This document shows positions 44,398 to 62,520 of a stretch of 64,000 bases of DNA, piece after piece; the first letter of the stretch is position 1, and every line of letters begins with the position of its first letter. Below the pieces are notes generated by a model. That model did not search any database. It was given only the letters and a program-made list of their open reading frames with translations, and had not been told where the DNA came from. The DNA lies in the NCBI GenBank assembly GCA_014237405.1, contig JABZFO010000113.1:1-64000 (forward strand). The letters run 5' to 3'. The position numbers and the translations under genes were made by a program. This DNA comes from Desulfosarcina sp. (GTDB lineage: Bacteria; Desulfobacterota; Desulfobacteria; Desulfobacterales; Desulfosarcinaceae).

Positions 44398-44479
44398 GGC
44401 ATCATGGGTATCACTAAAGGCTGAAGTTCAAAAACCCACTGTTGTTAAATTCAGTAACTAATAAGAGGAGGAACCTCTA

Positions 44480-46498
44480 ATGGCAGAAATAACAAAGGCT
44501 AAGGTAGCCAAGGCTCCAAAACTGGCTGATCCGGTTGCATCTTCCATAGATGTAGCATCACAGGAGATGATAGCGCGTTCCCATGAACTCGGGGTTGAAA
44601 CCATATTTGACAGAGCCCTGACCATGAAACAATGTGCCATAGGCGTCCAGGGCACGTGCTGTAAAAACTGTTCCATGGGACCCTGTCGTCTGCCTCTCCC
44701 CAAAGGCGGGATTGAAGGAGAAGACACAAGAAAAGGCCTTTGCGGCGCAACAGCTAACACTATCGCCGCCAGAAACTTTATCAGAATGATAGCCGGCGGC
44801 GCAGCAGCCCACTCTGACCATGGGCGCTGTGTTGCAGAAGTCTTTTTGGCTGCGGCACGAAAAGAGACGGAAGCTTATAAGGTAAAGGATATAGACAAAC
44901 TGCTGGCCGTTGCTCAAGACCTTGGTGTTGCAACAACTGTTGAGGTGGACGGAGAGGAGCTGGACAGGGATATTGATGAAATTGCAGTTGAAACAGCAGA
45001 AACTGCATTGAACGAATGGGGCAAAGCTGAAGGAGAACTCCTGACCTTGAAAAAGGCGCCTGAAGCCCGTTATGAAATCTGGAAAAAACAGGGGGTGCTT
45101 CCGAGAAATATAGACCGGGAGATCGTGGAGATCATGCACCGCACCCATATGGGCGTTGATCAGGATTATAAAAACCTGATGAAACAGGGAACCCGGGCGG
45201 CCATTGCAGACGGGTGGGGCGGCTCCATGCTGGCCACCGATCTGCAGGATATTCTCTTTGGAACCCCTTATCCGGTCCAGTCTGAGGCCAACCTCGGCGT
45301 GATGAAGGAAGATCTTGTAAATCTCGTTATCCACGGCCATGAGCCTGTTTTGTCGGAAATGATCGTTGCCGTTGCCCAGAAGCAGGAGATGATCGATTAT
45401 GCCAAAGCACAGGGTGCAAACGGGATCCAGCTCTCAGGGATCTGTTGTACAGCCAATGAACTGCTTCAGCGCCACGGCGTACCGTTGTGCGGAACCTTTT
45501 TGCAGCAGGAGCTGGCCATCATCACCGGCGCAGTCGATGCCATGGTGGTGGATATCCAGTGTATCATGCAGAACATTGCCAATGTTGCAAAATGCTTCCA
45601 CACCAAGGTAATTACCACCCATCCCATCGCCAAAATGGAACAGGATAATGTGATCCATATCGAGTTTGACGAGCACCATGCCATAGAAGATGCCGAGCGG
45701 ATCGTTAAACTGGCCTGTGACAATTTTAAAAATCGCGGTGCAGAGGTTATGATTCCGAAGCACAAAGCACCTGTCGTGGCCGGCTTTGGGGTTGAATCCA
45801 CAGAGTATCATCTTGGGGGATCGTTCCGCGGTACTTACTATACCCTCAACGACAACATAATAAACGGACGCATCCGGGGTGTTGCCGGCGTTGTAGGATG
45901 CAATAACGCCAGAACAAGGCACAATTATGATCATATAACCATATGCAAGGAGCTGATTAAAAATGATGTGATTGTCCTTACCACCGGATGTACGGCAATC
46001 GCCTGCGCCATGGAAGGACTGTTGACACCGGAAGCCGCAGCGGTTCACTGCGGTGCAGGTTTGGCTGAAGTATGCGAAACCGTCGGTATTCCTCCTATTC
46101 TTCATCTGGGTTCTTGTGTGGACAACAGCCGGATTCTTCTGGCTGCAACAGCAGTGGTTAAGGCCGGAGGGCTGGGAAATGACATTGCTGATCTGCCGGC
46201 TGCGGGAAGCGCACCTGAATGGATGAGTGAAAAGGCGATCAGTATCGGCCATTATTTTGTCGCATCCGGTGTTTATACGGTTTTTAGTAACCTGCCCACA
46301 ACGGGTGCCCCGGTGTTCAACGATTACATCTGCAAGGAGTTTGAAAAACTTTACGGGGGCATGTGGGGTGCTGAGCAGGATCCGATCAAGCATGCCCATC
46401 TGATGATTGCTCATATCGATAAAAAGCGCAAAGAGCTCGGTATCGACAAGGCAAGGGAAAGGGTCATGATGGATTTTGCCGATCGCCAGGCGCTTTAG
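44480..46498 (+). CDS. acsA: Carbon monoxide dehydrogenase catalytic subunit
   Basis: 672 residues, full length. Ligands of the B and D clusters are in 'GTCCKNCSMGPCRLPLPKGG' and 'CGATANTIAARN'. The Ni-Fe C-cluster region is seen in 'SGICCTANELLQRHGVPLCG', 'GVAGVVGCNNARTRHNYDHI', 'TTGCTAIACAMEGLL' and 'LHLGSCVDNSRILLAA'. It interconverts CO2 and CO and passes CO through a tunnel to AcsB. GAGGAGG precedes the ATG. The gene has distinctly lower GC than acsC, acsE or acsV, and this composition continues into acsB until about 48040. Confidence 0.96.
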   Translation: MAEITKAKVAKAPKLADPVASSIDVASQEMIARSHELGVETIFDRALTMKQCAIGVQGTCCKNCSMGPCRLPLPKGGIEGEDTRKGLCGATANTIAARNFIRMIAGGAAAHSDHGRCVAEVFLAAARKETEAYKVKDIDKLLAVAQDLGVATTVEVDGEELDRDIDEIAVETAETALNEWGKAEGELLTLKKAPEARYEIWKKQGVLPRNIDREIVEIMHRTHMGVDQDYKNLMKQGTRAAIADGWGGSMLATDLQDILFGTPYPVQSEANLGVMKEDLVNLVIHGHEPVLSEMIVAVAQKQEMIDYAKAQGANGIQLSGICCTANELLQRHGVPLCGTFLQQELAIITGAVDAMVVDIQCIMQNIANVAKCFHTKVITTHPIAKMEQDNVIHIEFDEHHAIEDAERIVKLACDNFKNRGAEVMIPKHKAPVVAGFGVESTEYHLGGSFRGTYYTLNDNIINGRIRGVAGVVGCNNARTRHNYDHITICKELIKNDVIVLTTGCTAIACAMEGLLTPEAAAVHCGAGLAEVCETVGIPPILHLGSCVDNSRILLAATAVVKAGGLGNDIADLPAAGSAPEWMSEKAISIGHYFVASGVYTVFSNLPTTGAPVFNDYICKEFEKLYGGMWGAEQDPIKHAHLMIAHIDKKRKELGIDKARERVMMDFADRQAL

Positions 46499-46567
46499 TA
46501 TAATCAAGATCATGTATTTTGAATGATAAAAAAACAAATCTGAAATCCTCAACGAAGGAGGAACAAA

Positions 46568-48708
46568 ATGTCAAGATTGATCGCATTTGCTGCCATCCAG
46601 GGCGGCTATAAAGTTGTCTCACAGGCCGAAGGAGCGTATCAAAAAGCGCTTGCGACCTAAAGGTTGAAACCCTCGAAGACCTGCAGGAGCCCCTGGATAT
46701 TGCACGGGGTCTTCTCCCCGCCCATATCAAAGGTAAAAACTGGCTTCCTTTCCTCGGTCCGCTTCTGGATGCAGGCATGGCCGGCATCATATCCTTTGAA
46801 GTGATAGAGGCTTTGAGATACCTGAATGAGCCTGATTTCTATATCCATGCCGAAGATCCGGATATCGAGGCGGGAAAACTCTGGACCGGCGCTGCAGACG
46901 ATACCATCTTCAGAAAAAGAGGGGTCGAGTTCGTTGACGGCACCGCTCCCGGTTTTGCGGCAATAGTAGGCTCTGCCCCTGATCCGGAAACAGCCAAGAT
47001 GATCATTGAAGATTACCAGCAAAGGGGTCTTTACATGTTCCTGGCTGCCAACCACAACGGAACCACCCTGGTCGAGCAGCTTATCGAAGCCGGCGTGCAG
47101 GTGGGGTGGAGTACACGAATCGCCTGCTTCGGCCCCGATATCTCTTCAGCAGTGTTTGCAGCAGGTTTTGCAAACCGCGTTGCAATGGCCTTCGGCGGGG
47201 TTCAGCCCGGTGATTATAAAAAGATTCTCATGTACAACAAAGAGCGCGTATTTGCATTTGTCAATGCCCTGGGCGATGTGGGAACCGAGTGGGGTGTTGC
47301 CGCCGCCGGCTGTGTCAACTGGGGATTCCCGACATTGGCCGACACCGACATTACCCAGATCTTGCCCACGGGTATCTGTACCTACGAGCATGTTGTATCC
47401 CCGATTGCCCATGATGAAATCTGCGCAAAGTCGGTTGAAGTCCGTGGCCTTAAAACCCTTGTATCCGACATCGAGATTCCGTGTGCCTTCGGTCCGGCCT
47501 ACGAGGGTGAGCGGATCAGGGGTGCCGATCTACACTGCCAGACAGGCGGTGGCAAGACCCAGTGCACCGAACTTTGCAAGATGGCGGAGATGAACGAGAT
47601 CGAGGACGCTAAGGTTGAGGTCATCGGCCCTGATATCGGTGATCTCAAAGAAGGTGATACGCTGCCGCTGGGTATTTATGCACAGGTAGCAGGCCGTGAA
47701 TTCCAGACTGATTTCGAACCTATTATTGAACGTCAGGTTCATCATCTGGTGAACTACATTCAGGGTATAATGCATATCGGGCAGAGAGATATTTCCTGGA
47801 TCAGGGTGGGCAAGGCCGCCGTAGAAAAAGGCTTCACCTTAAAGGACATTGGTGTTGTATTACATGCCAAGTTCCATCAGGATTTTGGCAATATCCTGGA
47901 TAAGGTGCAGATCACCATGTACACCAAGGAAAAAGACGTTGATGCTCTTACCAAACGTGCAAGAGCTGAATACAAGAAAAGGGATGAGCGTGTTGAGAAC
48001 ATGACCGACGAAGATGTCGAAACCTACTACTCCTGCACGCTGTGCCAGAGTTTTGCCCCCAACCACGTCTGTTCGGTGAGCCCGGAAAGAACAGGCCTGT
48101 GCGGCGCCTACAACTGGATGGACTGCAAGGCTTCCTTCGAGATCAATCCCACCGGACCCAACCAGCCCATTGAAAAGGGCGAGTGTCTGGATCCGGTTAT
48201 GGGGCAGTGGAAGGGTGTCAACGACTTTGTCTACAAGGCCTCACGCGGGGCGGTCACCCACTACAACTTCTACTCCCTGGTGGTCGATCCCATGACCACC
48301 TGCGGCTGCTGCGAGTGCATCGCCGCCATGCTGCCCTCCTGCAACGGCGTTATGACCGTGGGCCGGGATTATGCCGGTGAAACTCCCTGCGGCATGAAGT
48401 TTACCACCCTGGCCGGTGTCATGGGCGGTGGCGCTTCTTCGCCGGGTTTCGTTGGCCATTCCAAGTTCAACATTACCCAGGGCAAGTTTATCCTGGGTGA
48501 TGGCGGGTTGCTGCGCATGGTCTGGATGCCCAAGATACTGAAGGAAGAAATCAAGGAGCGCATCGAAAAACGGGGCGCCGAAATGGGCGTACCGGATCTC
48601 TATAACATGATCGCTGACGAGACCGTGGGCCTCACCGAGGAGGAGATCCTGCCCTTCCTCCAGGAAAAAGGCCATCCGGCCCTGACCATGGATCCGCTCA
48701 TTGGCTAA
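46568..48708 (+). CDS. acsB: Acetyl-CoA synthase AcsB (frame-interrupted near the N-terminus)
   Basis: The acetyl-CoA synthase subunit that joins CO, methyl and CoA at the Ni-Ni-[4Fe-4S] A-cluster. The ATG at 46568 (SD AAGGAGG) gives 'MSRLIAFAAIQGGYKVVSQA' and stops at 46659; the family sequence resumes in another phase at 'KVETLEDLQEPLDIARGLLP' (46660 on) and runs intact to 48708. The conserved block around 'NTAYYLPVIY' of homologues, about 25 codons, is absent. A-cluster cysteines are present in 'YYSCTLCQSFAPNHVC' , 'GLCGAYNWMDCKA' and 'TTCGCCECIAAMLP'. Composition switches from moderate to high GC near 48040. Confidence 0.9.
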
Positions 48709-48720
48709 CAGGCAAGACGA

Positions 48721-48746
48721 CGGGGCGGGCTTCATCGCCCGCCCCG
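48721..48746. terminator. Strong intercistronic hairpin between acsB and acsC
   Basis: CGGGGCGGGC-TTCATC-GCCCGCCCCG: ten perfect base pairs and a six-base loop, 12 bases after the acsB stop. No U-tract follows and acsC lies 70 bases downstream, so it may stabilise or process the operon mRNA rather than end it. Confidence 0.6.
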
Positions 48747-48815
48747 TACCACAGATGAACCGATTCCCCGGTCTTTTCGATCGGGTGAATTGCCCATACA
48801 GACAAGGAGAATAGT

Positions 48816-50153
48816 ATGGCATTAACCGGTATTCAGATTTTTAAACTCCTGCCCAAGACCAACTGCAAGGAATGCGGGGTACCCACCTGTCTTGCCTTTG
48901 CCATGAACCTGGCATCCGGCAAGGCCGAGCTGGACGCCTGCCCCTACGTTTCCGATGAAGCGCGGGAAAAACTCTCCGAAGCCTCTGCACCGCCCATCCG
49001 CCCCATCGTGGTGGGCAAGGGCGTCCGCAAAGCTACCACCGGTGGAGAGACCGTTCAGTACCGCCATGAAAAAACCTTTTTCAACCCCACCCTGCTGGCG
49101 GCCCAGGTGGGCAGCGACATCGCGGCGGCAGACCTGGAAACCAAACTCAAAGGGTGGAACGCGCTGCAGTTCGAGCGCGTGGGCCTGAATCTGCGGCCGG
49201 AACTGGTGGCCGTGAAAGATGTCGGCGGCAGTGCCGACGCCTTTGCCGCCGTGGCCAAACAGGTGGCCGAAACGTCGGAATTCAATGTGATTTTGATGAC
49301 CGAAGACGCCGAGGTGATGAAGGCCGGCGTGGCTGCCGCCGGCTTCAAGCGCCCACTGATGTATGCGGCCACCGAGGCCAATGTGGACGCCTTTGGCGCC
49401 ATCGCCAAGGAGAACGACCTTCCCCTGGCCATCAGGGCCGATTCCATCGAGGGCCTGGTTCCCCTGTCGGACAAGCTCACCGGCATGGGTGTCAAAGACC
49501 TGGTGCTCGATCCCGGCTCACGGGAACCCAAACAGTGCCATCAAGATATGATCGCCATCCGCCGTTCCGCCCTGAAAGACCAGAATCGTACCGTGGGCTT
49601 TCCCACCATCGCCTTTCCCTGTGAAATGGCCGACAACCTGGATGTGGAGACCATGCTGGGCGCCATGTACGTAGCCAAGTATGGCGGCATCGTGGTGATG
49701 TCCGACTTTGCCGGTGAATCTCTGTTCCCGCTGCTGCTGGAACGTCTCAATATCTACACCGACCCGCAGCGGCCCATGACCGTCACCGAGGGCATCTACC
49801 CCATCAACAACCCCGACGAAAACTCGCGGGTGCTGGTTACTACCAACTTTGCCCTCACCTACTTCATCGTTTCCGGTGAGATCGAGGCCAGCAAAGTGCC
49901 CTCCTGGCTGCTTATCAAGGACTCCGAAGGGCTGTCCGTACTCACCGCCTGGGCGGCCGGCAAGTTCGCCGGCGACGACGTGGGCATGTTCGTGAAAAAG
50001 AGCGGCATCACCGACAAGATCAAACATCAGGAAATAGTCATCCCCGGCTATGCCGCCTCCATCGTGGGCGACGTGGAAGAGGAACTGCCCGGCTGGACCA
50101 TTACCGTCGGTCCCCGGGAAGCAGCGCACATTCCCGGTTTCCTCAGAGCGTAA
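48816..50153 (+). CDS. acsC: Corrinoid iron-sulfur protein large subunit AcsC
   Basis: 445 residues, intact. The N-terminal [4Fe-4S] motif is 'LLPKTNCKECGVPTCLAFAM' plus a fourth Cys in 'DACPYVSDEA'. The TIM-barrel core contains 'KDLVLDPGSREPKQCHQDMI', and the C-terminal corrinoid-binding domain 'GLSVLTAWAAGKFAGDDVGM' and 'IVIPGYAASIVGDVEEELPG'. With AcsD it carries the methyl group from methyltetrahydrofolate (via AcsE) to AcsB. GGAG precedes the ATG. High-GC codon use contrasts with acsA. Confidence 0.95.
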   Translation: MALTGIQIFKLLPKTNCKECGVPTCLAFAMNLASGKAELDACPYVSDEAREKLSEASAPPIRPIVVGKGVRKATTGGETVQYRHEKTFFNPTLLAAQVGSDIAAADLETKLKGWNALQFERVGLNLRPELVAVKDVGGSADAFAAVAKQVAETSEFNVILMTEDAEVMKAGVAAAGFKRPLMYAATEANVDAFGAIAKENDLPLAIRADSIEGLVPLSDKLTGMGVKDLVLDPGSREPKQCHQDMIAIRRSALKDQNRTVGFPTIAFPCEMADNLDVETMLGAMYVAKYGGIVVMSDFAGESLFPLLLERLNIYTDPQRPMTVTEGIYPINNPDENSRVLVTTNFALTYFIVSGEIEASKVPSWLLIKDSEGLSVLTAWAAGKFAGDDVGMFVKKSGITDKIKHQEIVIPGYAASIVGDVEEELPGWTITVGPREAAHIPGFLRA

Positions 50154-50168
50154 CCGCTGTTTGATCTA

Positions 50169-50211
50169 ACGGTCAGGGCCGAAAGGCGTCGAATATGCCG
50201 GTCCTGACCGT
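50169..50211. terminator. Hairpin between acsC and acsE
   Basis: ACGGTCAGG (50169-50177) pairs with CCTGACCGT (50203-50211), 16 bases after acsC; a second short palindrome (GGCCGGC/GCCGGCC) follows at about 50220-50236. As with acsB/acsC, this may partition expression within the operon. Confidence 0.55.
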
Positions 50212-50312
50212 CGTTTCCTGGCCGGCACGCCGGCCATCATGTTGGCAATAGCGTCATCCGTGGCCGGAACACTGGCCGGAGCATGATGCCGAGAAAAAGA
50301 AAGGAAGGTCGT

Positions 50313-51102
50313 ATGCTACTAATCGGCGAGAGTTTGAATGTCATTTCAACAAAGATCGGCCGCGCCTACAAGGAGCGGGATCCCAAGCCGATCCAGGAAG
50401 AGGCCCTTTTCCAGAAGGAAAAGCGAATGGACTATATCGAATATCGATGCCATAGAAGCGGCACTGAAGGTGATCAAGCAGATCCCCGACGGAACACCCC
50501 ATATCGTCAACTCCATCATGTGCCGCCCCGAGCGCTACGAGCGCATGGTGCCCATCGCCGCCGAGTACAACGCGGACTTCATCGCCCTCATGTGGGGCCC
50601 CGAGGGCCTGCCCCGCGATGAAAACGAGCGCGCCGCCCTGTGCGTCGAACTGCTCTATTTCGCCAACGAAGCCGGCATCCCCAACGAGAAGATCTGGGTG
50701 GACGGCATCGTAACCCCGGTAAACATCCAGCAGCCCCAGGCCATCAGCCTCATGGAGTTCCAGCAGATGATTCCGGATATGTCCCCGGGGGCAAAAAGCA
50801 CCTGCGGTCTTTCCAATATCTCCAACGGCCCCCCCGAACACCTGCGCCCCATCCTGAACCAGACCTTCATGGTCATGCTGGAAAAATGCGGCATGCTGTC
50901 CGTCATCTCCGATCCCAGGGATGAACAGCTGACCGCCATCGCCAAGGGTGAGCGCCAGGACATCGTGGACCTGATCTACGGCATGCTGGACGGCACCGAC
51001 CCCGACCGCGCCAGTCTCTCCAAAGAGATGCTGGACTACGCCAAAACCGTGGATGTCATCCTCGGCAAAGCCCTGTACTCGGACTCCTGGCTGGAAATCT
51101 AA
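50313..51102 (+). CDS. acsE: Methyltetrahydrofolate:corrinoid protein methyltransferase AcsE (frame-interrupted)
   Basis: Transfers methyl from methyl-H4folate to the corrinoid iron-sulfur protein. The ATG at 50313 (GGAAGG upstream) gives 'MLLIGESLNVISTKIGRAYK' through 'KEKRMDYIE'; at about 50434-50444 the frame changes and the family resumes at 'IDAIEAALKVIKQIPDGTPH'. The ~34 residues between, which in homologues include the folate-binding LNVGPA/CLDST segments, are missing. The rest of the barrel is normal ('IALMWGPEGLPRDENERAAL', 'TCGLSNISNGPPEHLRPILN'). The short direct repeat ATATCGA-ATATCGA lies at the join. As written it would be inactive. Confidence 0.85.
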
Positions 51103-51126: not shown

Positions 51127-51163
51127 GAAAAAAGCCCCTTCCAGACTGGAAGGGGCTTTTTTT
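51127..51163. terminator. Bidirectional rho-independent terminator
   Basis: An A-tract, then AGCCCCTTCCAG-A-CTGGAAGGGGCT, then a T7 tract. It is a near-perfect 12-bp stem with A and T runs on the two sides, located between the convergent acsE and the leftward redox cluster. It should terminate transcription from both directions. Confidence 0.92.
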
Positions 51164-51971
51164 ATTCAGGCAACTTTTCATTTTTCGGCTTGTAGCCGTG
51201 AGGTTTGGAAAAAACCGGCGCGGTTAAACGCTGGGTTTTTCTCGAATAGAGTTTGGCGCATGTGGGACAATACTGGTGATGATTCTTAACATCGGGATGT
51301 TCCTTGGCATGCTCCTGCTTCTCTACGTGCTGCAGGAACTTCGGTGTCGCAAACAGCCTCCCGCACATTTCACATCGCTCCAGCGGGTGGCGGCCAATCA
51401 CTTCATCCCGGATCATGATGGTTCTCACATTGCCCTTATCCACCAATTGGATGGCCCCGGTGGGGCAGATATTGGCGCAGGTGCCGCACCCGATGCAGGT
51501 CCCCTCCTCCCGTGGCGCCACATAATTAATGCCCTTCCGCTTGACTATTTTCAACGCCTGCGCACCGATGATCTCCCGGCAAACCCGAACGCACAGGCGG
51601 CAACGGATGCAGCCGTCCGGAATCACCCCGGTGATCAAATTGAACTCCTCGCCGATCTCGATAATCCGCTGCGACCGAGGCGCCATCTTCAGGAGATTGC
51701 CGATGGCCAGATTCCGCATTTTGTAGATCATGGCGCTTTCGGTGACCACTTCCATCCCATCCCGGGTTTTGATGGCACAGGAGAGCTTGGTCGTTGGCGG
51801 CTCGTCTCCGACTCTTACCTCCACGACGCAGAGTTTACACGAGGCCGCCGGCGTCAACGCATGGTGAAAGCACATGCTCGGAATTTTGAATCCTTTTTCG
51901 GTCAGCACCGTCAGCAGCCTCACCCCTTTTTCGACTTCAAATTCCTGACCGTTAACCTTGATCTTCGCCAT
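51162..51971 (-). CDS. NuoG/HoxU-like [2Fe-2S]/[4Fe-4S] protein with C-terminal Cys module
   Basis: 269 residues. N-terminal [2Fe-2S] plant-type ferredoxin domain ('CFHHALTPAASCKLCVVEV' plus 'LSCAIKTRDGMEV'), a helical segment, then two [4Fe-4S] sets ('GCIRCRLCVRVCREIIGAQA', 'GTCIGCGTCANICPTGAIQL'). The end carries 'CEMCGRLFATPKFLQ' and 'YCPTCAKLYSRK', a module shared with two other proteins of this cluster. It transfers electrons between the NuoF-like flavoprotein and other subunits. The ATG at 51971 has GGGAG upstream. Last gene of the leftward operon, ending in the strong terminator. Confidence 0.85.
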   Translation of the reverse strand: MAKIKVNGQEFEVEKGVRLLTVLTEKGFKIPSMCFHHALTPAASCKLCVVEVRVGDEPPTTKLSCAIKTRDGMEVVTESAMIYKMRNLAIGNLLKMAPRSQRIIEIGEEFNLITGVIPDGCIRCRLCVRVCREIIGAQALKIVKRKGINYVAPREEGTCIGCGTCANICPTGAIQLVDKGNVRTIMIRDEVIGRHPLERCEMCGRLFATPKFLQHVEKQEHAKEHPDVKNHHQYCPTCAKLYSRKTQRLTAPVFSKPHGYKPKNEKLPE

Positions 51972-51982
51972 GGGTATTCTCC

Positions 51983-52192
51983 CTATTCTTTCAGCCTGCG
52001 CAGACAATCCTGGGGTAAGCGATGGGTGCCCTTATCGACCAGGCTCACTTCAACCAACGCATCCGGATCGTTGATTGCCGAATCCGGATCAGTGATGATG
52101 CCATGCAGCCCGACGAATTCGTCCATATAGTCCTGCCAGCTCTCATCTGTTGATTTTTTAAATATTTCGACCTTTTCACCTCTTCGAAACAT
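51983..52192 (-). CDS. Small hypothetical protein of the redox operon
   Basis: 69 residues ('MFRRGEKVEIFKKSTDESWQ', 'EFVGLHGIITDPDSAINDPD', 'ALVEVSLVDKGTHRLPQDCL'). The pattern of short strands and a conserved 'GLHGIITD' turn suggests an SH3/KOW-like barrel. It lies 21 bases after the flavoprotein gene and 11 bases before the next, clearly in the operon, so an assembly or maturation role is possible (inference). Confidence 0.7.
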   Translation of the reverse strand: MFRRGEKVEIFKKSTDESWQDYMDEFVGLHGIITDPDSAINDPDALVEVSLVDKGTHRLPQDCLRRLKE

Positions 52193-52213
52193 GTTGACCT
52201 CCGTTGTTGCAGG

Positions 52214-54376
52214 TTAGCGTATCGGGATAATCTCCTCGTTATGCTTCTTGGCGGTCTTTTTACGGGCACATGCCATGCAGATCGCCCGTCCATCCACCAC
52301 CGTGGCGATCCCTTTCAGCCGACGGGTGATATAGTCATGATATTTGGCAGGGCCCAGGGCGGTGCCGCACTGGGCGCAATACTCCAGCTTCAGGCGGTTC
52401 AATACGGTTCCGCACAGCGACAGAATTCGTTCTCCACCCACATCTTTGATCTGCATCGCGCCATTGGGGCAGTTTTCTGCACAGGCGCCACAGGTAATGC
52501 AGCGGTCAGCCGTATCTCTAAAATCGGTCTTAACCGGATGGTCAAAATCCAGGTAGCCAAGCTGAAGCGCATTAATTCCCATTTTGTCTCTACAGACATC
52601 CACACAGGCCCCACATCGGCGGCACACATCGCATCGCAGGCAGCGGCGGGCCTCTTCACGGACCTGGTTTTCCGAGTATCCCAACTCCACCTGTTGAAAG
52701 GTCACCCGTCTCCTGTTGTAGTTGAGCAGGCTCATTTCCGGTTTCTTCAGGTTCATTTTTGTGCTGGCCGGCACCTCCAGAAAATCGAGGCGGGCACGGC
52801 GTACCGGTACCGGCGGCATGCTCGGCTGTGGAATGCCTAAAAGGTAACGATCGATGGCCTGGGCAGCCTTTTTACCGCCGCCGATGGCCTCCACTACCGT
52901 TGCCGGCCCCAGCACGGCATCACCGGCGGAGAAAACCCCAGGCGTGGAGGTCTCCATGCAGGCGCGGTTGACATCAATGGTGTTGCGCCGGGTCCATTTC
53001 AGCCCGGTGAGGCTTTCCATACACTCATTGTCCACACGCTGGCCGATGGCGGGGATCACCACATCGGTTTCGATGGTATATTCGCTTCCCTCAATGGGCA
53101 CCGGGTATTTACGGTCACTCCCCGCTTTGGCCACCAGTTCGGCTCTCAGGCAGCGAAGGCCGGTAACGCGGCCGTTTTCACCGATGATTTTCACCGGAAC
53201 GGTGAGAAACGACATGGCAATATCTTCTTCTTCGGCCTGCTCGACCTCTTCCGGATCAGCCGGCATCTCTGAGTGGGTTCGGCGATAGGCGATCGTCACC
53301 TCTTCACATCCCAGCCGGACGCAGGTTCTGGCCGCATCGATGGCCACGTTGCCGCCACCGATGATCACCACCCGCTTGCCCGGGGCATGGCGCTCACCGA
53401 GGGCGACATTTTTTAAGATGTCGATGGCATCCAGCACCTGGGGGTAGTCGTTTTCCCCTGGAATGCCTAAATGGTAAGGTTTATGGGCACCGATGGTGAA
53501 GAGAAAGGCTTCATACCCTTCGTCTTTAAGCTGCTGAAGGGTGATGTCCGTGCCGAATCGCGTATTATAGGCAAAAGTCACGCCCAGATCTTCGATCATG
53601 GCGACCTCCCGATCGATCACCTCCCGGGGCAGGCGGTATCGGGGAATGCCCACCATCATCATACCGCCGGCCACCGGCAGCGCTTCAAACACCTTCACCG
53701 TGTACCCTTTCAGCGCCAGATAATAGGCCGCACTCATACCGGCCGGACCGGCACCGATTACGGCCACCTTTTTACCTTGATCAGGTGCCTTCTCGGGATT
53801 CTTGTATTGCCGGTCCGACATGGCCCGTTCGGCGGCATACGCCTTTAGAAATTTGATCGAAATCGGCGTATCTATTCTTGCTCGGACACACATGAATTCA
53901 CAGGGGCGGGTGCAGACCAGTCCGCACACCCATGGAAACGGGTTATCCTTGCGGATGATATCGATGGCCTCTGCATCACGGCCCATACCGATCAGGGTCA
54001 CATAGGAGGGGACATCGATACCTGCCGGACAGGCCGTCTGACAGGGCGCCGGTGCCAGGAGAATGCACTCCCCGGTGGTACAATTATGCGTTTTCACGTG
54101 ACTGGCAAAGGTTTCCGCGTTTTCCTGAATGGTGGATTGCACAAACTTGCCGGTTTCCATACTCACGGCGTCGGACCCCTTTTCCACCAGTTCCCGGGCC
54201 AGGTCGTCGATGGCGGACAAATGATCGTCCCCGGCCCGTCCCCAGGCAATGTCATCTGTCAGTACCAGAATCTCTTCGGCGAGCCGGCGGCAATATGGAT
54301 CCACCAGGCGGTTGGCATCAAGCGTCTCTTTCAATTGGACAATAGCGCTGTGTACCGGACATTTTCCAGCGATCAT
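52214..54376 (-). CDS. Glutamate synthase small-subunit-like FAD/NAD(P) oxidoreductase with [4Fe-4S] domains
   Basis: 720 residues. A ~110-residue helical N-terminal extension, then the GltD/NfnB core: cluster motif 'CQTACPAGIDVPSYVTLIGM' with 'GLVCTRPCEFMC', FAD 'KKVAVIGAGPAGMSAAYYLA', NAD(P) 'GKRVVIIGGGNVAIDAARTC' and 'TPGVFSAGDAVLGPATVVEA'. The C-terminal third has further [4Fe-4S] motifs ('CLRCDVCRRCGACVDVCRDK', 'RCITCGACAENCPNGAMQIK') and the shared tail 'YCAQCGTALGPAKYHDYI...ICMACARKK'. Such subunits often take part in electron bifurcation or confurcation with NuoEF-like partners (inference). Confidence 0.88.
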   Translation of the reverse strand: MIAGKCPVHSAIVQLKETLDANRLVDPYCRRLAEEILVLTDDIAWGRAGDDHLSAIDDLARELVEKGSDAVSMETGKFVQSTIQENAETFASHVKTHNCTTGECILLAPAPCQTACPAGIDVPSYVTLIGMGRDAEAIDIIRKDNPFPWVCGLVCTRPCEFMCVRARIDTPISIKFLKAYAAERAMSDRQYKNPEKAPDQGKKVAVIGAGPAGMSAAYYLALKGYTVKVFEALPVAGGMMMVGIPRYRLPREVIDREVAMIEDLGVTFAYNTRFGTDITLQQLKDEGYEAFLFTIGAHKPYHLGIPGENDYPQVLDAIDILKNVALGERHAPGKRVVIIGGGNVAIDAARTCVRLGCEEVTIAYRRTHSEMPADPEEVEQAEEEDIAMSFLTVPVKIIGENGRVTGLRCLRAELVAKAGSDRKYPVPIEGSEYTIETDVVIPAIGQRVDNECMESLTGLKWTRRNTIDVNRACMETSTPGVFSAGDAVLGPATVVEAIGGGKKAAQAIDRYLLGIPQPSMPPVPVRRARLDFLEVPASTKMNLKKPEMSLLNYNRRRVTFQQVELGYSENQVREEARRCLRCDVCRRCGACVDVCRDKMGINALQLGYLDFDHPVKTDFRDTADRCITCGACAENCPNGAMQIKDVGGERILSLCGTVLNRLKLEYCAQCGTALGPAKYHDYITRRLKGIATVVDGRAICMACARKKTAKKHNEEIIPIR

Positions 54377-54481
54377 AGCAGGTTACCTCATTTGTTGGAC
54401 TCGGGGCCACCGGATACCTCCGGCATCCACTCATCGTAAAACCGAAGGATCGGAAAACAGCCCGTTCAGAATCTCATGGCA

Positions 54482-54982
54482 TTATTGCGCAGCTTCCAAC
54501 CGGGCATGTCTTTCTCGTTTGATGGGATTGATATTTTCGGCCACATCGAAATGGAGACAGCCGGTGGTGCATACCGCTACACACGCCGGTTCCAAGCCGG
54601 CATCCAGTCGGTCCATGCACAGATCACACTTGACCACCCGGCCGCGACTGGGGTCCCATTGGGGTGCACCCCATGGACATGCCGAAATACAGCTTTTGCA
54701 CCCGACGCACAGGTCATGATTGACAAATACGATCCCGTCCTTGGCTCTGCGCTGCATGGCCCCTGCCGGACAGGCCTCGATGCACCAGGGTTTCTCACAG
54801 TGAAAGCAACCCACATAGATATAGGCCGCTTCCGGCTGTCCGTTCACCATCCTGGGCCCCACTTCTATAATCTCGCAGAGTTTCGGCCCAACCGGCAGCG
54901 ATTTATTGCTTTTGCATTGAATTTCACAGGAGTGGCATCCGATGCATTTGTCCGTGTCCTGATAGAGATGATATTTGCTCAT
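54482..54982 (-). CDS. HycB/PsrB-like four-cluster ferredoxin (copy 2)
   Basis: 166 residues with four [4Fe-4S] motifs: 'KCIGCHSCEIQCKSNKSLPV', 'CFHCEKPWCIEACPAGAMQR', 'LCVGCKSCISACPWGAPQWD' and 'CDLCMDRLDAGLEPACVAVC'. It is a close paralogue of the protein at 58381-58884. These subunits relay electrons from a molybdopterin enzyme. The start at 54982 ('MSKYHLYQDTDKC') matches the paralogue start; the upstream frame to 55033 is rejected. Two copies in one operon suggest two entry points or exchangeable partners. Confidence 0.9.
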   Translation of the reverse strand: MSKYHLYQDTDKCIGCHSCEIQCKSNKSLPVGPKLCEIIEVGPRMVNGQPEAAYIYVGCFHCEKPWCIEACPAGAMQRRAKDGIVFVNHDLCVGCKSCISACPWGAPQWDPSRGRVVKCDLCMDRLDAGLEPACVAVCTTGCLHFDVAENINPIKRERHARLEAAQ

Positions 54983-55054
54983 TAGGCTTTTCGACTCCTT
55001 CATGCGGGGTAAAGCGGATAGGGCCGCATCCAAAATAAAGAAAAGGTTATTCCC

Positions 55055-55861
55055 TCAAACAACAAAGGGCATGGCGCCGCCCCCAAAGGGGACATTGACC
55101 GGCGAGGGGCGCTCTTTGTTCTTAACGCATTCCGGGCAGATATAATCCACCAGTTCCAGTCCTTTTGTTTTGTATGCCCGCTCATTGATGCGATCCAAAT
55201 ATTTTTTAGGGGCAAAGGGACGGCCGCACTCAGTGCACTTCTCCAACTTGAATCGGGCGATGACCTGCCCCCACGTGTAAATTTTTCGCTCATCACCCCG
55301 ATCCTCGATCCGAATCGCACCGGTCGGGCAAACCTGGGCACAGGATCCGCACCCGATGCAGTATTCCGACAATCGTTCAAAATCCGTGGTCACCTTCCGG
55401 TCATAGCCCCGGTTGACCCAGCACAGGGCATAGGCGCCGATTTTATCCCGGCAGACCCGAACACATCGCCCACACCGCACGCAATCGTCTTCTTCACCGG
55501 TTCGGAAACGGCTGGTGGCGACGCCGCATTTACCGGCAAGGTCCAGCAGTTCTTTACTGTAAGGGGAGCGCCCCAGCAGCAGCTCGATAATCAGGCGGCG
55601 ATCTCTACGAATCCGCTTGGTTTCGGTCTCCACAATCAGGCCCTCTTTAACTTCCTGAATACAGGATACACGGATAGAATGCCGGATGGCTCCGCTGACT
55701 TCAACGATGCAAAGCCGGCAGGTGCCTTCGGGTTCCAGGGCTTCATGATGACAAAGCGTGGGGATAAAAATCCCTTCGTTTTTAGCCGCCTCCAGTACGG
55801 TCATCCCTTCCGGAGCCTGAATCTCACGGCCGTTGATTGTCAGATTGACCAGTGTTGCCAT
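55055..55861 (-). CDS. NuoG/HoxU-like [2Fe-2S]/[4Fe-4S] protein (copy 1)
   Basis: 268 residues. [2Fe-2S] domain ('LCHHEALEPEGTCRLCIVEV', 'VSCIQEVKEGL'), helical middle, [4Fe-4S] sets 'DDCVRCGRCVRVCRDKIGAY' and 'EYCIGCGSCAQVCPTGAIRI', and the C-terminal module 'KCTECGRPFAPKKYLDRINE...YICPECVKNKE'. Paralogue of 51162-51971. GGAG lies before the ATG at 55861, and it follows the NuoF-like gene by 10 bases. The frame extending to 55981 overlaps NuoF and is rejected. It would pass electrons from the FMN subunit to the molybdopterin side. Confidence 0.88.
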   Translation of the reverse strand: MATLVNLTINGREIQAPEGMTVLEAAKNEGIFIPTLCHHEALEPEGTCRLCIVEVSGAIRHSIRVSCIQEVKEGLIVETETKRIRRDRRLIIELLLGRSPYSKELLDLAGKCGVATSRFRTGEEDDCVRCGRCVRVCRDKIGAYALCWVNRGYDRKVTTDFERLSEYCIGCGSCAQVCPTGAIRIEDRGDERKIYTWGQVIARFKLEKCTECGRPFAPKKYLDRINERAYKTKGLELVDYICPECVKNKERPSPVNVPFGGGAMPFVV

Positions 55862-55871
55862 GGATAATCTC

Positions 55872-57653
55872 CTATCCTTTCTGGACCGCGTCGAACTTGC
55901 ACCCTTCGTAGCATACGCGGCATTTGACGCATTTTTCCTGATCGATATAATGCGGTTCTTTCTTCTCGCCGGATATGGCACCGGTGGGACAGTTTCTCGC
56001 GCAAATGGTGCATCCGGTGCATTTTGCCTCGTCGATGGTAAAGGTGGTGAGTGCCTTGCACACCCCGGCCGGACATTTCTTGTTTACAATATGGGCCTCA
56101 TACTCTTCGCGGAAGTACTGCAATGTGGACAGCACGGAATTAGGGGCACTGGTGCCCAATGCGCAGAGCGAGGCATCCTGCATCATCAGGGAAAGTTCTT
56201 CCAGCATGTCGATGTGCTCGGGTGTTCCTTTTCCTTCGGTGATCTCCGTGAGCAGTCTCACCATCTGGGCCGTCCCTTCCCGGCATGGGGTGCATTGGCC
56301 GCAGCCCTCGTCTTTGCAGAACTGCAGAAAATATTTGGCCATATCCACCATGCAGGTGTCCTCATCCAGGACGATCATGCCTCCGGAACCCATCATGGAT
56401 CCGGCCTTGCTCAGGTTCTCGTAGTCCACCGGCATATCCAGGTGGCTGGCCGGAATACAACCTCCGGAAGGGCCACCGGTCTGGACCGCCTTGAAGGCTT
56501 TTTTCTTGGGGATCCCACCACCGATCTTGTAGATGATGTCCCTTAGCGGAATACCCATGGGCACTTCCACCAAACCGGTATTGTTGATTTTGCCGACCAG
56601 GGAAAAAATTTTGGTTCCCTTGCTGGTCTCCGTGCCGATACCCGCGTACCACTGGGCGCCCTTATCGATAATCAGCGGAACATTGGCCCAGGTTTCCACG
56701 TTGTTCAGATTGCTGGGTTTGCCCCACAGGCCCCTGTCCGTGGTATGGACGTATTTGGGTCGCGGTTCACCGGCCCGATCTTCAATGGAGGTCATCAGGG
56801 CCGTGGACTCTCCGCAGACAAAGGCACCGGCACCCAACACGACCTTGATTTCGAAGTTGACATCCGTCCCGAAGATTTTTTCTCCAAGAAAATGATGCTC
56901 CCGGGCCTGATCCAACGCCATGCGCAGCCGCGCCACCGCCAGCGGATACTCCGCACGAATGTAAACATAGCCCTCCTCAGAGCCGATGGCATGGGCACCG
57001 ATGATCATTCCCTCGATGACGGCGTGGGGATTACCCTCGACGATGGATCGGTCCATAAAGGCCCCCGGATCCCCCTCGTCCGCGTTGCACAACACATATT
57101 TTATCGTTCCGGGTGCCCGGCGGCAACTCTCCCACTTGATGCCAGCGGGGAACCCACCGCCACCCCTTCCCCGCAATCCGGACGCCTTGATGTCGGCAAT
57201 GATCTGTTCCGGATCCATTTTCAGGGCTTTGCGTACCGCATGGTAACCGCCGGCGTCCATGTACTCGTCGATGGATTCGGGATCGATCTGTCCGCAGTTG
57301 GCCAGCACCAGCTTTTTCTGCAGGCTGTGAAAATCATGGTAGTCTTTTTTGACCAGCCATTTGGACACCGGCTTGCCGCCGATAATATGTTCCTCCACAA
57401 TCTTGATCGCTTTTTCCGGCGTAACGAACTGGTATGTCTCGGTCTGGCCATTGACGGCGACATCCACGAGCACATCTTTGGCACAAAACCCGCGGCACCC
57501 AACCTTGTGGGTTCTCGGGGTAAATTTGGCATCCAGACTCTTTTCCGTGAAAGCCGACTGAAAGGCCTCGATAACTTTGTATCCACCGGCGGCAACACCA
57601 CCGGTGCCTGTGCAGATACTGACAACGATATCCTTGCTTGCTTTTTTCGCCAT
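55872..57653 (-). CDS. NuoF/HydB-like NAD-dependent flavoprotein subunit
   Basis: 593 residues. A thioredoxin-like N-terminal domain, then the NuoF core: NADH/FMN-binding 'GLRGRGGGGFPAGIKWESCR', 'YVLCNADEGDPGAFMDRSIV', 'FVCGESTALMTSIEDRAGEP', the [4Fe-4S] motif 'CKDEGCGQCTPCREGTAQM', and a C-terminal pair of [4Fe-4S] motifs ('CTGCTICARNCPTGAI', 'CVKCRVCYEGCKF'). In the N-terminal domain the usual C-x-G-T-x-C reads 'CTGTGGVAAGG', so one [2Fe-2S] ligand is replaced by Gly, while the 'GCRGFC' pair is kept. It is the NAD(H) site of the complex. It follows the NuoE-like gene by 15 bases. Confidence 0.93.
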   Translation of the reverse strand: MAKKASKDIVVSICTGTGGVAAGGYKVIEAFQSAFTEKSLDAKFTPRTHKVGCRGFCAKDVLVDVAVNGQTETYQFVTPEKAIKIVEEHIIGGKPVSKWLVKKDYHDFHSLQKKLVLANCGQIDPESIDEYMDAGGYHAVRKALKMDPEQIIADIKASGLRGRGGGGFPAGIKWESCRRAPGTIKYVLCNADEGDPGAFMDRSIVEGNPHAVIEGMIIGAHAIGSEEGYVYIRAEYPLAVARLRMALDQAREHHFLGEKIFGTDVNFEIKVVLGAGAFVCGESTALMTSIEDRAGEPRPKYVHTTDRGLWGKPSNLNNVETWANVPLIIDKGAQWYAGIGTETSKGTKIFSLVGKINNTGLVEVPMGIPLRDIIYKIGGGIPKKKAFKAVQTGGPSGGCIPASHLDMPVDYENLSKAGSMMGSGGMIVLDEDTCMVDMAKYFLQFCKDEGCGQCTPCREGTAQMVRLLTEITEGKGTPEHIDMLEELSLMMQDASLCALGTSAPNSVLSTLQYFREEYEAHIVNKKCPAGVCKALTTFTIDEAKCTGCTICARNCPTGAISGEKKEPHYIDQEKCVKCRVCYEGCKFDAVQKG

Positions 57654-57668
57654 AGTGAGAACCCCGGT

Positions 57669-58136
57669 CTATCCGTTTTCAGACGATTCGTGTTGTTTCA
57701 AAATGGTCGAGACCTGTTTCGGTTTAACCTGCCCGTAGGTTTCTTCATTGACAACCACTGCCGGGGCCAGGCTGCAGGCACCGATGCACCGCACCTCTTC
57801 CAGGGAAAAATTCATATCGTCGGTACTTTCTCCGATGTCGATATTCAATTTCTCCCGGAGTGCGTCCATCACCTTTCCAGCCCCTTTGACGTGGCAGGCC
57901 GTACCCAGGCAGACGGATATCACGTTTTTCCCTTTGGGCTCTAAGCTGAACCGGTTATAGAAATTGACGATACTGTAAATCTGGGTGATGGGTATCTGGG
58001 TTCGTTTGGAGATATACCGCAGCTCTTCTTCCGGAAGGTAACTGTAGCGGTTCTGCACTTCGTGGAGAATCCCGATCAGATTTCCCTTGACGCCCTGGAA
58101 CTTTTCCAGGATTTCATTAACACCGGCCACATCCAT
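57669..58136 (-). CDS. NuoE-like [2Fe-2S] subunit
   Basis: 155 residues with the thioredoxin-like 24-kDa fold. The four ligands are in 'VCLGTACHVKGAGKVMDALR' (C-x4-C) and 'VRCIGACSLAPAVVVNEETY' (C-x3-C). 'GILHEVQNRYSYLPEEELRY' and 'IPITQIYSIVNFYNRFSLEP' are typical. It carries one [2Fe-2S] cluster beside the FMN of the NuoF-like subunit, with which it forms the NAD(H) module. Confidence 0.94.
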   Translation of the reverse strand: MDVAGVNEILEKFQGVKGNLIGILHEVQNRYSYLPEEELRYISKRTQIPITQIYSIVNFYNRFSLEPKGKNVISVCLGTACHVKGAGKVMDALREKLNIDIGESTDDMNFSLEEVRCIGACSLAPAVVVNEETYGQVKPKQVSTILKQHESSENG

Positions 58137-58380: not shown

Positions 58381-58884
58381 CTATCTCAGTGGTGCCATAG
58401 CCCGGGCATACCGATCACGCTTGGTCTGCGGGATATGCTCCGCCAGGTCAAACTTCAGACAATGGGTGGTACAGGCGGTCACGCATGCCGGTTGAAGCCC
58501 GGCATCGATCCGGTCCATGCAATAGTCGCATTTGACCACCTTGCCCTTTTCCGGATCCCACTGGGGCGCCCCCCAGGGACAGGCGGAAATGCAGGTTTTA
58601 CAGCCAACACAGAGGTTATGATCCACATATACGATGCCGTCCTTTTCTCGCCTTGTCATGGCACCTGTGGGGCAGGCCGCCACACACCAGGGATTCTGGC
58701 AGTGAAAACAAGGCATGAAGATATAGGAGGCCCGCGGTATATTGTCGATCAGTTGCGGACCGACCTCAACAATCTGACAGAGCCGGGGGCCGGGGGGCAA
58801 CGATTTATTGGTTTTGCATTGAATCTCACAGGCGTGGCAGCCGATGCATTTTTTCGTATCCTGAATCAGGTAATATTTACTCAT
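58381..58884 (-). CDS. HycB/PsrB-like four-cluster ferredoxin (copy 1)
   Basis: 167 residues with four [4Fe-4S] motifs: 'KCIGCHACEIQCKTNKSLPP', 'CFHCQNPWCVAACPTGAMTR', 'LCVGCKTCISACPWGAPQWD' and 'CDYCMDRIDAGLQPACVTAC'. It directly follows the molybdopterin subunit (about 108 bases) and is the expected electron-transfer partner of that enzyme. Close paralogue of 54482-54982. GGAGGATT lies upstream of the ATG. Confidence 0.92.
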   Translation of the reverse strand: MSKYYLIQDTKKCIGCHACEIQCKTNKSLPPGPRLCQIVEVGPQLIDNIPRASYIFMPCFHCQNPWCVAACPTGAMTRREKDGIVYVDHNLCVGCKTCISACPWGAPQWDPEKGKVVKCDYCMDRIDAGLQPACVTACTTHCLKFDLAEHIPQTKRDRYARAMAPLR

Positions 58885-58992: not shown

Positions 58993-61077
58993 CTATACCG
59001 GCTTGACGGTCACAAATGTTTCATGCAAGGCCGGACTGCCACCGATCATATCGGAAACATTCTTCATCAATGCGGCATCATTTACCCCTTTGTTGTAAGA
59101 GCGGGTGGCCGACTCGGCCTCATGGCCAAAACCATGGAGCATGAATACGCTTTCCGGATGGATCAGATTGGTCACATAGGCCTTGATGACACCGGTTCCA
59201 TGTTCGGAAAAAACCTCGACCATATCTCCGTTTTTAATGCCCAACACGGCCGCTTTTTTGTCGTTAATCCAGAGAACATTTTCCGAACAGATCTCGTTCA
59301 GATAGGGATTGTTTTGAGTCGATACATGGGTGTGCAGCGCGTTCCGCCCTGTCGACAGTCGGAACTGTCCCTCGGGGGGCGACGGCATGGGCTCATATTC
59401 GGGAAAGGATTCAAACCCGGCATCTTCCAGCAGGGACGATTTAAATTCGATTTTGCCGGAGGGGGTCTTGAACTTTATCCCGTCGGCCCGGTCCCAGAAG
59501 ATCTTTTTACTTCCGTAGGCAACGCTGCCTTTGGCATTGAAATCTTCCCGTGTAAAGCCCGTCCCCTCCAACTGCCACTTCACAAGGTCTTCCATGGATT
59601 CGTAGGGGAAATAGTCGCCGATACCGATCCGTTCACCGACCTGTTTGAGGATAATGGCACCCTCCCGGGTATCGTACCTGGGGGGGACCACCTGTTGACG
59701 CAGGAACATCTGGGGTTTGAGGCCGTTGGCCTGCTGGACGCAGTCGGTTCGTTCCAGGTAGGTGGACTCGGGAAGGATGACATCACTGTACCAGGCGATA
59801 TCGCTGTAATTGATATCGATAGTGACAATGAGATCAAGCTCTTTCAGGGCTTTTTTTGTAAAATTGGTGTCGTTGATGGACATGAGTGGATCGAACCGGT
59901 AGGCAATCAATGCTTTTACGGGATAGGGGTCTTTGTTGAGAATGGCAAAAGGCAGCATCTGCCCCACGCCGTGGGCAGGATCGGGAAGGGGAAAGTCCGG
60001 TGTTCCCACCTTGTCGAACCGCGGGACGCCGATGCTCGGAAATTTTTGCTCGGTCAGCTTCCGGGCCGGCTTGCCCCCCTCTTCACCGGGGCCTTTTTTA
60101 ATGAAAAACCCGCCTTTAGCCTCCATGCTTCCCAACAACGCGTTGAGGATCATGATGGAACGGCGCATGTAGATTTCGTTGGTATGGTTGGCGCCGCGGT
60201 AACCGAAATGAAAAATCACATGGGGGGCGTCCTGGCTGATCTCCTGGGCGAGGGTTTCGATTTCATGGGCCGCGATACCGGTCTCCTTTTCGGCCCACTC
60301 AGGCGTATACTCCCCGACAAACTCCTGGAGTTCGCTCAAACCGACCACCCAACGATCCACGTAGGCATCATCGTAGAACCGGTCTCTGAGGATCACATGA
60401 ATCAGGGCATAGTTCAGGGCCAGATCGGTGCCCGGCCGGATCATCCAGTATCGTTGGGATTTGGTGGCGGTTTTGGTCACCCTGGGGTCGATGTATGTCA
60501 TTTTAGCCCCATTCTCCAGGGCATCCATCAGGTTGTTGACTTCTTTGACGGCAATGGCCTCAAATATATTGCGCCCATACAGGACGATCTGCTTACAGTT
60601 CTTGTAGTCCATGCTCATCTGAGCATCGGTATAGCCAAATAGAGACCGACAGGCGGTATTCACCGATCCCTTGCACAGCGCATCATGGGTGAAATGGTTG
60701 GGGGATTTGATGGCCTTTAAAAAGGTCTTGCTCACATGGGTGGCCAGCTGGGTCCGTTCCCCAAGCACCACGCTGTGGCCGCCGTACTTGTCGATAACCC
60801 CTTTGAGCTTGCCGCCCACATAATCCAGGGCTTCATCCCAACTGGCTTTTCGCCAGTGGCCGCCGCCTCTTTCCCCCACCCGAATCATTGGCGACTTCAC
60901 CCGTTCATTGTCGTACAGCAGGGCGATGCCGGCGGCGCCACGAGGACACAGGCTCCCATCCATACCAGGCACGTGTGGGTTGCCTTCGATCCATTTTACC
61001 TGGCCGTCTTTCACAATGACCTTGATGGGACATCTCACCGAACACATGAAACAGAGCGTAAATACTTCTTTTTCCAT
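58993..61077 (-). CDS. Molybdopterin-dependent oxidoreductase catalytic subunit
   Basis: 694 residues of the DMSO-reductase superfamily. The N-terminal [4Fe-4S] motif is 'CFMCSVRCPIKVIVKDG...LCPRG'. The likely Mo/W ligand is the Cys in 'FTHDALCKGSVNTACRSLFG', which places it nearer to the thiosulfate/polysulfide reductase group than to typical formate dehydrogenases with Sec or Cys in CHGPS. MGD-binding: 'QIVLYGRNIFEAIAVKEVNN', 'GAKMTYIDPRVTKTATKSQR' and 'TGRNALHTHVSTQNNPYLNE' near the end. No Tat signal, so it is cytoplasmic. With NuoEF-like partners it could be an NAD-linked formate dehydrogenase or sulfur-compound reductase; I cannot decide. The start at 61077 has GGAGGATT upstream. Confidence 0.88.
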   Translation of the reverse strand: MEKEVFTLCFMCSVRCPIKVIVKDGQVKWIEGNPHVPGMDGSLCPRGAAGIALLYDNERVKSPMIRVGERGGGHWRKASWDEALDYVGGKLKGVIDKYGGHSVVLGERTQLATHVSKTFLKAIKSPNHFTHDALCKGSVNTACRSLFGYTDAQMSMDYKNCKQIVLYGRNIFEAIAVKEVNNLMDALENGAKMTYIDPRVTKTATKSQRYWMIRPGTDLALNYALIHVILRDRFYDDAYVDRWVVGLSELQEFVGEYTPEWAEKETGIAAHEIETLAQEISQDAPHVIFHFGYRGANHTNEIYMRRSIMILNALLGSMEAKGGFFIKKGPGEEGGKPARKLTEQKFPSIGVPRFDKVGTPDFPLPDPAHGVGQMLPFAILNKDPYPVKALIAYRFDPLMSINDTNFTKKALKELDLIVTIDINYSDIAWYSDVILPESTYLERTDCVQQANGLKPQMFLRQQVVPPRYDTREGAIILKQVGERIGIGDYFPYESMEDLVKWQLEGTGFTREDFNAKGSVAYGSKKIFWDRADGIKFKTPSGKIEFKSSLLEDAGFESFPEYEPMPSPPEGQFRLSTGRNALHTHVSTQNNPYLNEICSENVLWINDKKAAVLGIKNGDMVEVFSEHGTGVIKAYVTNLIHPESVFMLHGFGHEAESATRSYNKGVNDAALMKNVSDMIGGSPALHETFVTVKPV

Positions 61078-62411: not shown

Positions 62412-62520
62412 ATGTAAAAATGTGAAGTTATTTTTGAGTGAGCCCAAAGGTGTTGCGCTTCTTTTTGTATAACGTGCCTGACAGGAAGGCAAATTTAAAT
62501 TTTCTAAGAGGAGGTTGATA

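Follow-up and report, generated by a model that had tools for sequence, protein, structure and literature searches.

Three redox subunits encoded in one operon of Desulfosarcina sp. end in the same four-cysteine tail, which sequence comparison identifies as a Cys4 module of the HycF type, with one metal ion (Fe or Zn) that would be bound by a CxxC(G) and a CxxC pair in a small ribbon. The operon lies on the minus strand of the 64,000-nucleotide stretch of contig JABZFO010000113.1 that we analysed (the window). The three carriers are two HoxU/NuoG-like subunits, BfuA1 (268 amino acids, 55055–55861) and BfuA2 (269 amino acids, 51162–51971), and a GltD/NfnB-like flavoprotein of the pyridine nucleotide type with Fe-S motifs (720 amino acids, 52214–54376; hereafter GltD). 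Judging from their alignment, the tail is the final part of a longer electron-transfer unit that the three subunits have in common at their C-termini. The tails were most likely inherited with their subunits, and we hold with moderate confidence that the tail plays no catalytic part and serves to clamp a partner subunit of ferredoxin type.

The open reading frames and their alignment confirm the observation, made in a sequence-only reading of the window, that the same cysteine tail closes all three proteins. The pattern runs L-E-x-C-x2-C-G, 28–30 residues, C-x2-C and then 17–31 further residues, with cysteines at positions 209/212/242/245 of BfuA1 (LEKCTECG...CPEC, 55127–55246), 667/670/700/703 of GltD (LEYCAQCG...CMAC, 52268–52387) and 200/203/235/238 of BfuA2 (LERCEMCG...CPTC, 51258–51383); the CxxC-to-CxxC spacers are 29, 29 and 31 residues, respectively. 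Eight positions of the proposed consensus are invariant across the aligned tails (L, E, C, C, G, K, C and C), whereas its isoleucine is not shared, being valine in BfuA2, and the second cysteine pair begins CP in both BfuA proteins but CM in GltD. Chance is ruled out as the origin of the pattern: CxxCG-x22-45-CxxC arose in 1, 0 and 7 of 20,000 shuffles of each protein's stretch after the last [4Fe-4S] motif. The tails alone are alike in pairwise BLASTP (E = 1e-8, 1e-8 and 2e-4; one sequence against one, with composition correction and masking off). The likeness reaches upstream of the tail, across both [4Fe-4S] motifs, and the common part spans about 119 residues (BfuA1, 55127–55483; GltD, 52268–52624; BfuA2, 51258–51611), with identities of 42% between BfuA1 and BfuA2, 45% between BfuA1 and GltD and 32% between BfuA2 and GltD over 125–130 columns. 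A profile of 29 tail sequences retrieved the three window tails from the source assembly (92% complete, 201 contigs) at E = 8e-16 or better and found no fourth, the next place scoring E = 0.21.

In a comparison of the tails alone with 18,950 NCBIfam models, BfuA1 and BfuA2 both had PRK12387, the model for HycF, as their best match (E = 0.0048, profile positions 114–163 of 180, and E = 0.0015, positions 114–161, respectively), and the matched positions coincide with the C-terminal metal cysteines of HycF. The HycF tail from the E. coli genome record scores 13.5 bits on the tail profile, a score surpassed by 2 of 500 cysteine-fixed shuffles. According to passages of the report on the solved E. 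coli formate hydrogenlyase (PMC9474812), HycF residues Cys117, 120, 155 and 158 bind a single metal ion, tentatively iron, which lies about 17 Å from a HycB cluster and near the FdhF interface; the C-terminal extension touches HycB, the position of the metal speaks against its belonging to the main electron path, and the site was described in 2022 as unpredicted, with its role open. The earlier suggestion of a small zinc or iron ribbon is thus supported by HycF, which binds a single metal on the same cysteine pattern. In E. coli formate hydrogenlyase, HycF (PDB 7Z0S chain F) and HyfH carry CxxC-x34-CPxC behind a 2x[4Fe-4S] domain, like the window tails, and HycF has a similar RPFA-x-x-K core; in contrast to the window subunits, it lacks [2Fe-2S] and flavin parts and works with a NiFe hydrogenase. 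Its spacer is 34 residues as against 29–31 in the window, and the GltD tail is the more diverged. HycB, for its part, resembles the two DmsB-like subunits of the window (56 and 51 bits).

The relation to HycF rests on the match of the tail alone among the NCBIfam models and on the position of the tail behind a ferredoxin domain. The tail profile by itself is no proof of it, because searches of the PDB with tail-only profiles favoured mostly zinc-finger and ribosomal proteins: the best E-values (4.7e-5 with three tails, 0.0015 with 29) belong to repeat-rich zinc fingers, HycF appears at E = 0.26 in the 29-tail search, and 9MQX is not among the best 60 of 71 matches. None of the three window tails reached a Pfam cut-off. 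The zinc hinge of HydB was rejected as the identity of the tail, since it is described in part of PMC9499530 as three cysteines and one histidine in a different subunit.

Chain A of PDB entry 9MQX, the BfuA subunit of an electron-bifurcating tungsten aldehyde oxidoreductase, is a full-length relative of both window BfuA proteins, tail included. It aligns with BfuA1 almost end to end with the tail cysteines in register (CPICG...CPTC). The structure model of BfuA1, computed from a 36-sequence alignment (mean pLDDT 87.6; block means of 82, 58 and 85 over residues 221–250), superposes on 9MQX chain A with Z = 24.3 and 3.4 Å over 244 residues and predicts the same fold; the differences are a shorter spacer (22) in 9MQX and a catalytic part that is a tungsten aldehyde oxidoreductase.

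The HycF authors drew on the Fe:Ni ratio, charge patches and Arg122 to propose (in passages of PMC9474812) that the metal is an iron of rubredoxin-like, redox-active character, through which the redox state would be sensed and the binding of the catalytic subunit adjusted. An arginine occupies the place of Arg122 in BfuA1 and BfuA2 of the window (CGR), but threonine does so in GltD, and the arginine is not general: it occurs in 9 of 21 BfuA1, 16 of 28 BfuA2, 3 of 35 Por-associated BfuA and 0 of 48 GltD units. The same passages call the iron tentative and the fold unlike that of characterised rubredoxins. As no GltD unit carries the arginine, a redox switch is unlikely as a general role of the tail, and we give this explanation rather little weight.

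The tail is not confined to this operon, nor do all NuoG-like proteins have it. A search for other carriers with the 29-tail profile (E ≤ 1e-3) found it in 95 of 198 sampled genomes of the phylum, 131 matches in all. For the same sample, 150 BfuA-like matches were listed, and a tail match coincides with 90 of them and is lacking from 60 at this threshold; the tail is therefore not a feature of all HoxU/NuoG-like proteins, the outcome that would have spoken against the sequence-only reading, and its presence follows operon type. The other 41 tail matches fall on proteins that are not BfuA-like, among them 7 in frames shorter than 210 residues, 11 in frames of 701–740 residues, which proved GltD-like where retrieved, and 10 in frames of at least 1000 residues, of which the retrieved ones are GltD fusions. 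Five loci (L097, L098, L099, L100 and L109) have tailed GltD-like frames of 1006–1232 residues adjoining catalytic and DmsB-like genes, the frame in L097 with a NuoF-like N-terminal part. At L092 (7103–7684, plus strand), near catalytic and DmsB-like genes, a 194-residue frame joins a NuoF-type C-terminal Fe-S domain to a Cys4 tail.

The link to operon type emerged from 69 BfuA loci, taken in listing order, 49 for having a tail and 20 for lacking one, with L115 excluded; two of the latter (L234 and L238) proved tailed at a looser threshold and were counted so, giving 51 tailed and 18 untailed loci. Genes for pyruvate oxidoreductase (Por) accompany 35 of the 51 tailed loci, one of which (L210) was counted on the strength of a weak PorA match next to CooS, and none of the 18 untailed ones, whereas HdrA-like genes accompany none of the tailed and 13 of the untailed loci (Fisher tests, 1e-7 and 2e-10, with related loci treated as independent). 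The respective numbers are 2 and 0 for CooS, 3 and 0 for DmsB, and 0 and 1 for tungsten oxidoreductase.

These counts bear on the possibility that the tail is a structural ribbon and nothing else, whose metal, probably zinc, makes the terminal part of its subunit's ferredoxin domain more rigid, with no partner-specific role. Spacer length and partner genes do differ widely between carriers, and the tailed loci L090, L091, L178 and L179 show no DmsB or Por gene nearby, both of which suit such a role. The 18 of 69 BfuA loci in which the same ferredoxin domain is untailed show that the domain needs no tail to exist, and the HycF tail sits at an inter-subunit boundary in the structure described in passages of PMC9474812. 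We consider a purely structural ribbon possible, though somewhat unlikely.

GltD orthologues, defined as matches above 800 bits, occur at 44 distinct loci, 11 of which were fetched through a tail match, so that the remaining 33 bear on tail frequency; L149, L155 and L158 repeat contigs already counted and do not figure among the 44. The tail is present in 42 of the 44 and in 31 of those 33, the two misses (L041 and L174) being cut by contig ends. At the same 44 loci, a DmsB-like gene occurs in 41, a catalytic-subunit gene in 39 and the gene for a 69-residue protein in 38; BfuA2 is present in 23, tailed in all 23 and without BfuB in 20. Seven loci have BfuB, and the eight with BfuA1 all have it in tailed form. 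The usual cassette is thus a catalytic subunit, DmsB, tailed GltD and the 69-residue protein, often with a tailed BfuA2. In the window and a few relatives among loci L034–L043 (titled Desulfobacterales, Desulfobacteraceae, Desulfobacula and one Deltaproteobacteria), BfuC, BfuB and a tailed BfuA1 have been added to this cassette, and all three tails occur together in the window, L036, L037 and L039. The GltD tail count excludes rows below 800 bits, namely L176 and 16 further GltD matches in 14 loci, which include the tailed GltD fusions and L178–L181; the L176 match (737 bits, 655 amino acids, query positions 5–478 only) has no tail.

In a tree of 145 C-terminal units, the three units of the window fall into three separate clades, GltD (48 rows, support 96/78), BfuA1 (11 rows, 94/98) and BfuA2 (27 rows, 100/99), and each groups beside its own orthologue in L039. 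The tree is built on few columns and has open forks, unsettled bootstrap values and some long branches that meet; on its well-supported branches alone, the three window units still need three changes. Because the alignments and the tree include tailed sequences only, the constancy of the four cysteines in them follows from how the sequences were chosen. Since the three units lie in separate clades, the tails most likely came with their subunits, duplication of a tail within the operon is rejected, and the three-tailed operon looks ordinary in origin.

Given this descent and the occurrence of the tail in nearly half of the sampled genomes, the idea of an operon-specific feature is not supported. 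One form of that idea is an address tag, with tails added here to gather three subunits on a symmetric scaffold organised by the 69-residue protein (51983–52192). Seven of the 95 tailed genomes have at least two tails within 6 kb and only that of the window has three (the cluster in G105 reaches a contig end), which favours such a tag, as does the recurrence of three tails in L036, L037 and L039. Against it stand the three clades, with each unit beside its own orthologue, and gene numbers that do not fit a symmetric set: tails and DmsB-like genes number 3 and 2 in the window, 3 and 1 in L036 and L037, and 1 and 1 in L084–L088. Furthermore, the 69-residue protein, which the sequence-only reading had named as a possible organiser, tracks the GltD-like gene and not the number of tails; in 12 of the 38 loci that they share, the GltD tail is the only tail seen, with no other tailed BfuA in the stretch, so the small protein does not organise three tails. 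An operon-specific tag is consequently very improbable. Of the common docking partner or symmetric assembly first suggested, docking is plausible and symmetric assembly is unsupported.

The 69-residue protein more likely acts on GltD or on GltD's acceptor. It is 57–86% identical to the window copy across 15 relatives, and its model (mean pLDDT 86.5) is a predicted SH3-like barrel for which KOW, YorP, PsaE and PetP tie as fold matches at Z = 7.3–8.5, with no Foldseek match at E ≤ 0.001. The structure comparison suggests a common fold, not a family.

To account for these findings, we propose that the 2x[4Fe-4S] domain and the tail, which usually follows it directly, make up a unit of about 119 residues that has been joined to varied N-terminal parts: a [2Fe-2S] NuoG-like part in BfuA, a pyridine-nucleotide flavoprotein in GltD and almost nothing in HycF. 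With HycB, DmsB or PorD as the ferredoxin-type subunit of a separate catalytic enzyme, the tail would keep the outer [4Fe-4S] cluster of the unit pressed against that subunit. Electrons would then cross from cluster to cluster, while the tail metal, off the main path, would keep the ribbon together. In the window operon, three ports, namely NADH and ferredoxin via BfuABC, NAD(P)H via GltD, and BfuA2, would dock on the DmsB-like subunit or subunits of a PsrA-like molybdopterin enzyme. A clamp is placed at the electron crossing because electrons must pass to a ferredoxin-type subunit of another enzyme in all three pairings (HycF and HycB/FdhF, GltD and DmsB, BfuA and either Por or the tungsten enzyme), and because, in the loci examined, the tail is missing where BfuA faces HdrA.

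Several observations weigh against the clamp. The GltD tail has no match to HycF at E ≤ 1 among the NCBIfam models and is therefore tied to HycF solely through the BfuA tails, and the arginine beside the HycF metal is absent from all 48 GltD units. L090 (6.6 kb) and L091 (15 kb) encode tailed GltD relatives of the same length (854 and 858 bits) with no DmsB, molybdopterin or 69-residue gene in sight, and no DmsB is seen beside the tailed GltD relatives of L178 and L179; these four loci speak against a strict rule that tail and DmsB go together. Conversely, L180 and L181 combine DmsB and molybdopterin genes and a tailed GltD relative with an untailed BfuA of 440–453 amino acids, and an untailed BfuA stands beside a tungsten-oxidoreductase gene in L223, though the BfuA of 9MQX is tailed. 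The candidate partner in the Por loci is the 2x[4Fe-4S] protein PorD rather than a DmsB, and the tail of L092 follows its NuoF-type domain without a 2x[4Fe-4S] domain. No partner gene is visible at 16 of the 69 BfuA loci (12 of 51 tailed, 10 of these 12 on stretches shorter than 8 kb, and 4 of 18 untailed). As the loci are related, the link to operon type is an association by lineage and no tested rule, and we infer, rather than observe, a metal in the window proteins, the clamp contacts and the one shared acceptor.

The operon is a single gene run on the minus strand from 61149 to 51162 that encodes a molybdopterin enzyme, Fe-S subunits, the flavoprotein and the two HoxU/NuoG-like proteins. 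By domain content, its NuoE/NuoF/NuoG-like trio is a BfuABC set as defined in parts of PMC9304861, with the expected Pfam domains in each member: 2Fe-2S_thioredx in the [2Fe-2S] thioredoxin-like BfuC (57669–58136), Complex1_51K, SLBB, NADH_4Fe-4S and Fer4 in the NADH/FMN subunit BfuB with its C-terminal [4Fe-4S] motifs (55872–57653), and Fer2_4 and Fer4 in BfuA1; BfuA2 likewise has an N-terminal [2Fe-2S] part before its 2x[4Fe-4S] domain and tail. Two DmsB/HycB-like 4x[4Fe-4S] subunits (58381–58884 and 54482–54979) were assigned from domain and family profile scans. Type 2 of the Bfu family, as set out in the same source, adds catalytic and Fe-S subunits to BfuABC, as the window operon does; the latter differs in a catalytic subunit nearest PsrA, the tailed GltD flavoprotein, a second tailed BfuA and the 69-residue protein. 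The StnABC transhydrogenase (PDB 8OH5; described in parts of PMC10482914) likewise combines a BfuBC core with GltD-like NADPH and NuoG-like parts, which form one StnC chain there but are separate chains in the window and stand with a molybdopterin enzyme.

The catalytic subunit (58993–61149) is, by alignment score, nearest among solved structures to the polysulfide/thiosulfate reductase PsrA (2VPW_A), which it matches with 377 bits as against at most 159 for the formate dehydrogenases among the six PDB chains listed. Its NCBIfam scores are 599 for PhsA (below the cut-off of 694) and 249.5 for Fdh-alpha (cut-off 666). In formate dehydrogenases, a catalytic Cys or Sec followed by His is expected. 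In the alignment with PsrA, the cysteine of the LC motif is followed by lysine in the window protein (LCKGS), and a formate dehydrogenase was rejected for want of the Cys-His pair. As no signal peptide was noticed before the first [4Fe-4S] motif, the subunit is likely to be cytoplasmic. Divergent to its gene lies a gene of the TauE/SafE (sulfite exporter) family (62482–63999, plus strand), which is also found at L177 (13181–14557) and other cassette loci, 27 of the 44 distinct ones; the 70 Bfu loci used as controls, some of which are short, have none. This gene and the PsrA-like catalytic subunit are hints of a sulfur compound, rather than formate, as the substrate.

Other genes recur near the cassette: a PAS histidine kinase (by Pfam; for example L177, 15946–17457) in 21 of 43 clustered loci, one contig being counted twice, a response-regulator-like protein (by eye) in 20 of the 43, and small membrane-like proteins without a Pfam match. 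On the other side of the operon, and convergent to it, genes resembling those of carbon monoxide dehydrogenase (CODH)/acetyl-CoA synthase and methyltransferases (named by eye) occupy 43015–51102 on the plus strand; this adjacency may be particular to the genome, since no copies were flagged at the other cassette loci listed.

The module itself had been described in HycF, and a solved BfuA contains it; what the analysis adds is its breadth, its link to operon type and the separate descent of its copies. We found no account of the distribution of the tail in the literature searched, and as the probable 9MQX paper lay outside that search, we do not claim the tail in BfuA as unreported. A HycF-type module on many BfuA-like and GltD-like subunits turns a single observation into a family, in which tailed and untailed BfuA are natural variants for testing the role of the tail. 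A further step, which we regard as unlikely on present evidence, is that the tail is a portable clamp that selects the partner, its presence or absence helping to decide where BfuABC or an NAD(P)H flavoprotein docks, be it on a ferredoxin-type catalytic enzyme (Por, molybdopterin-DmsB, CODH or formate hydrogenlyase) or instead on HdrA. If that were true, the three-tailed operon would encode a hub enzyme in which three electron ports share one acceptor of ferredoxin type.

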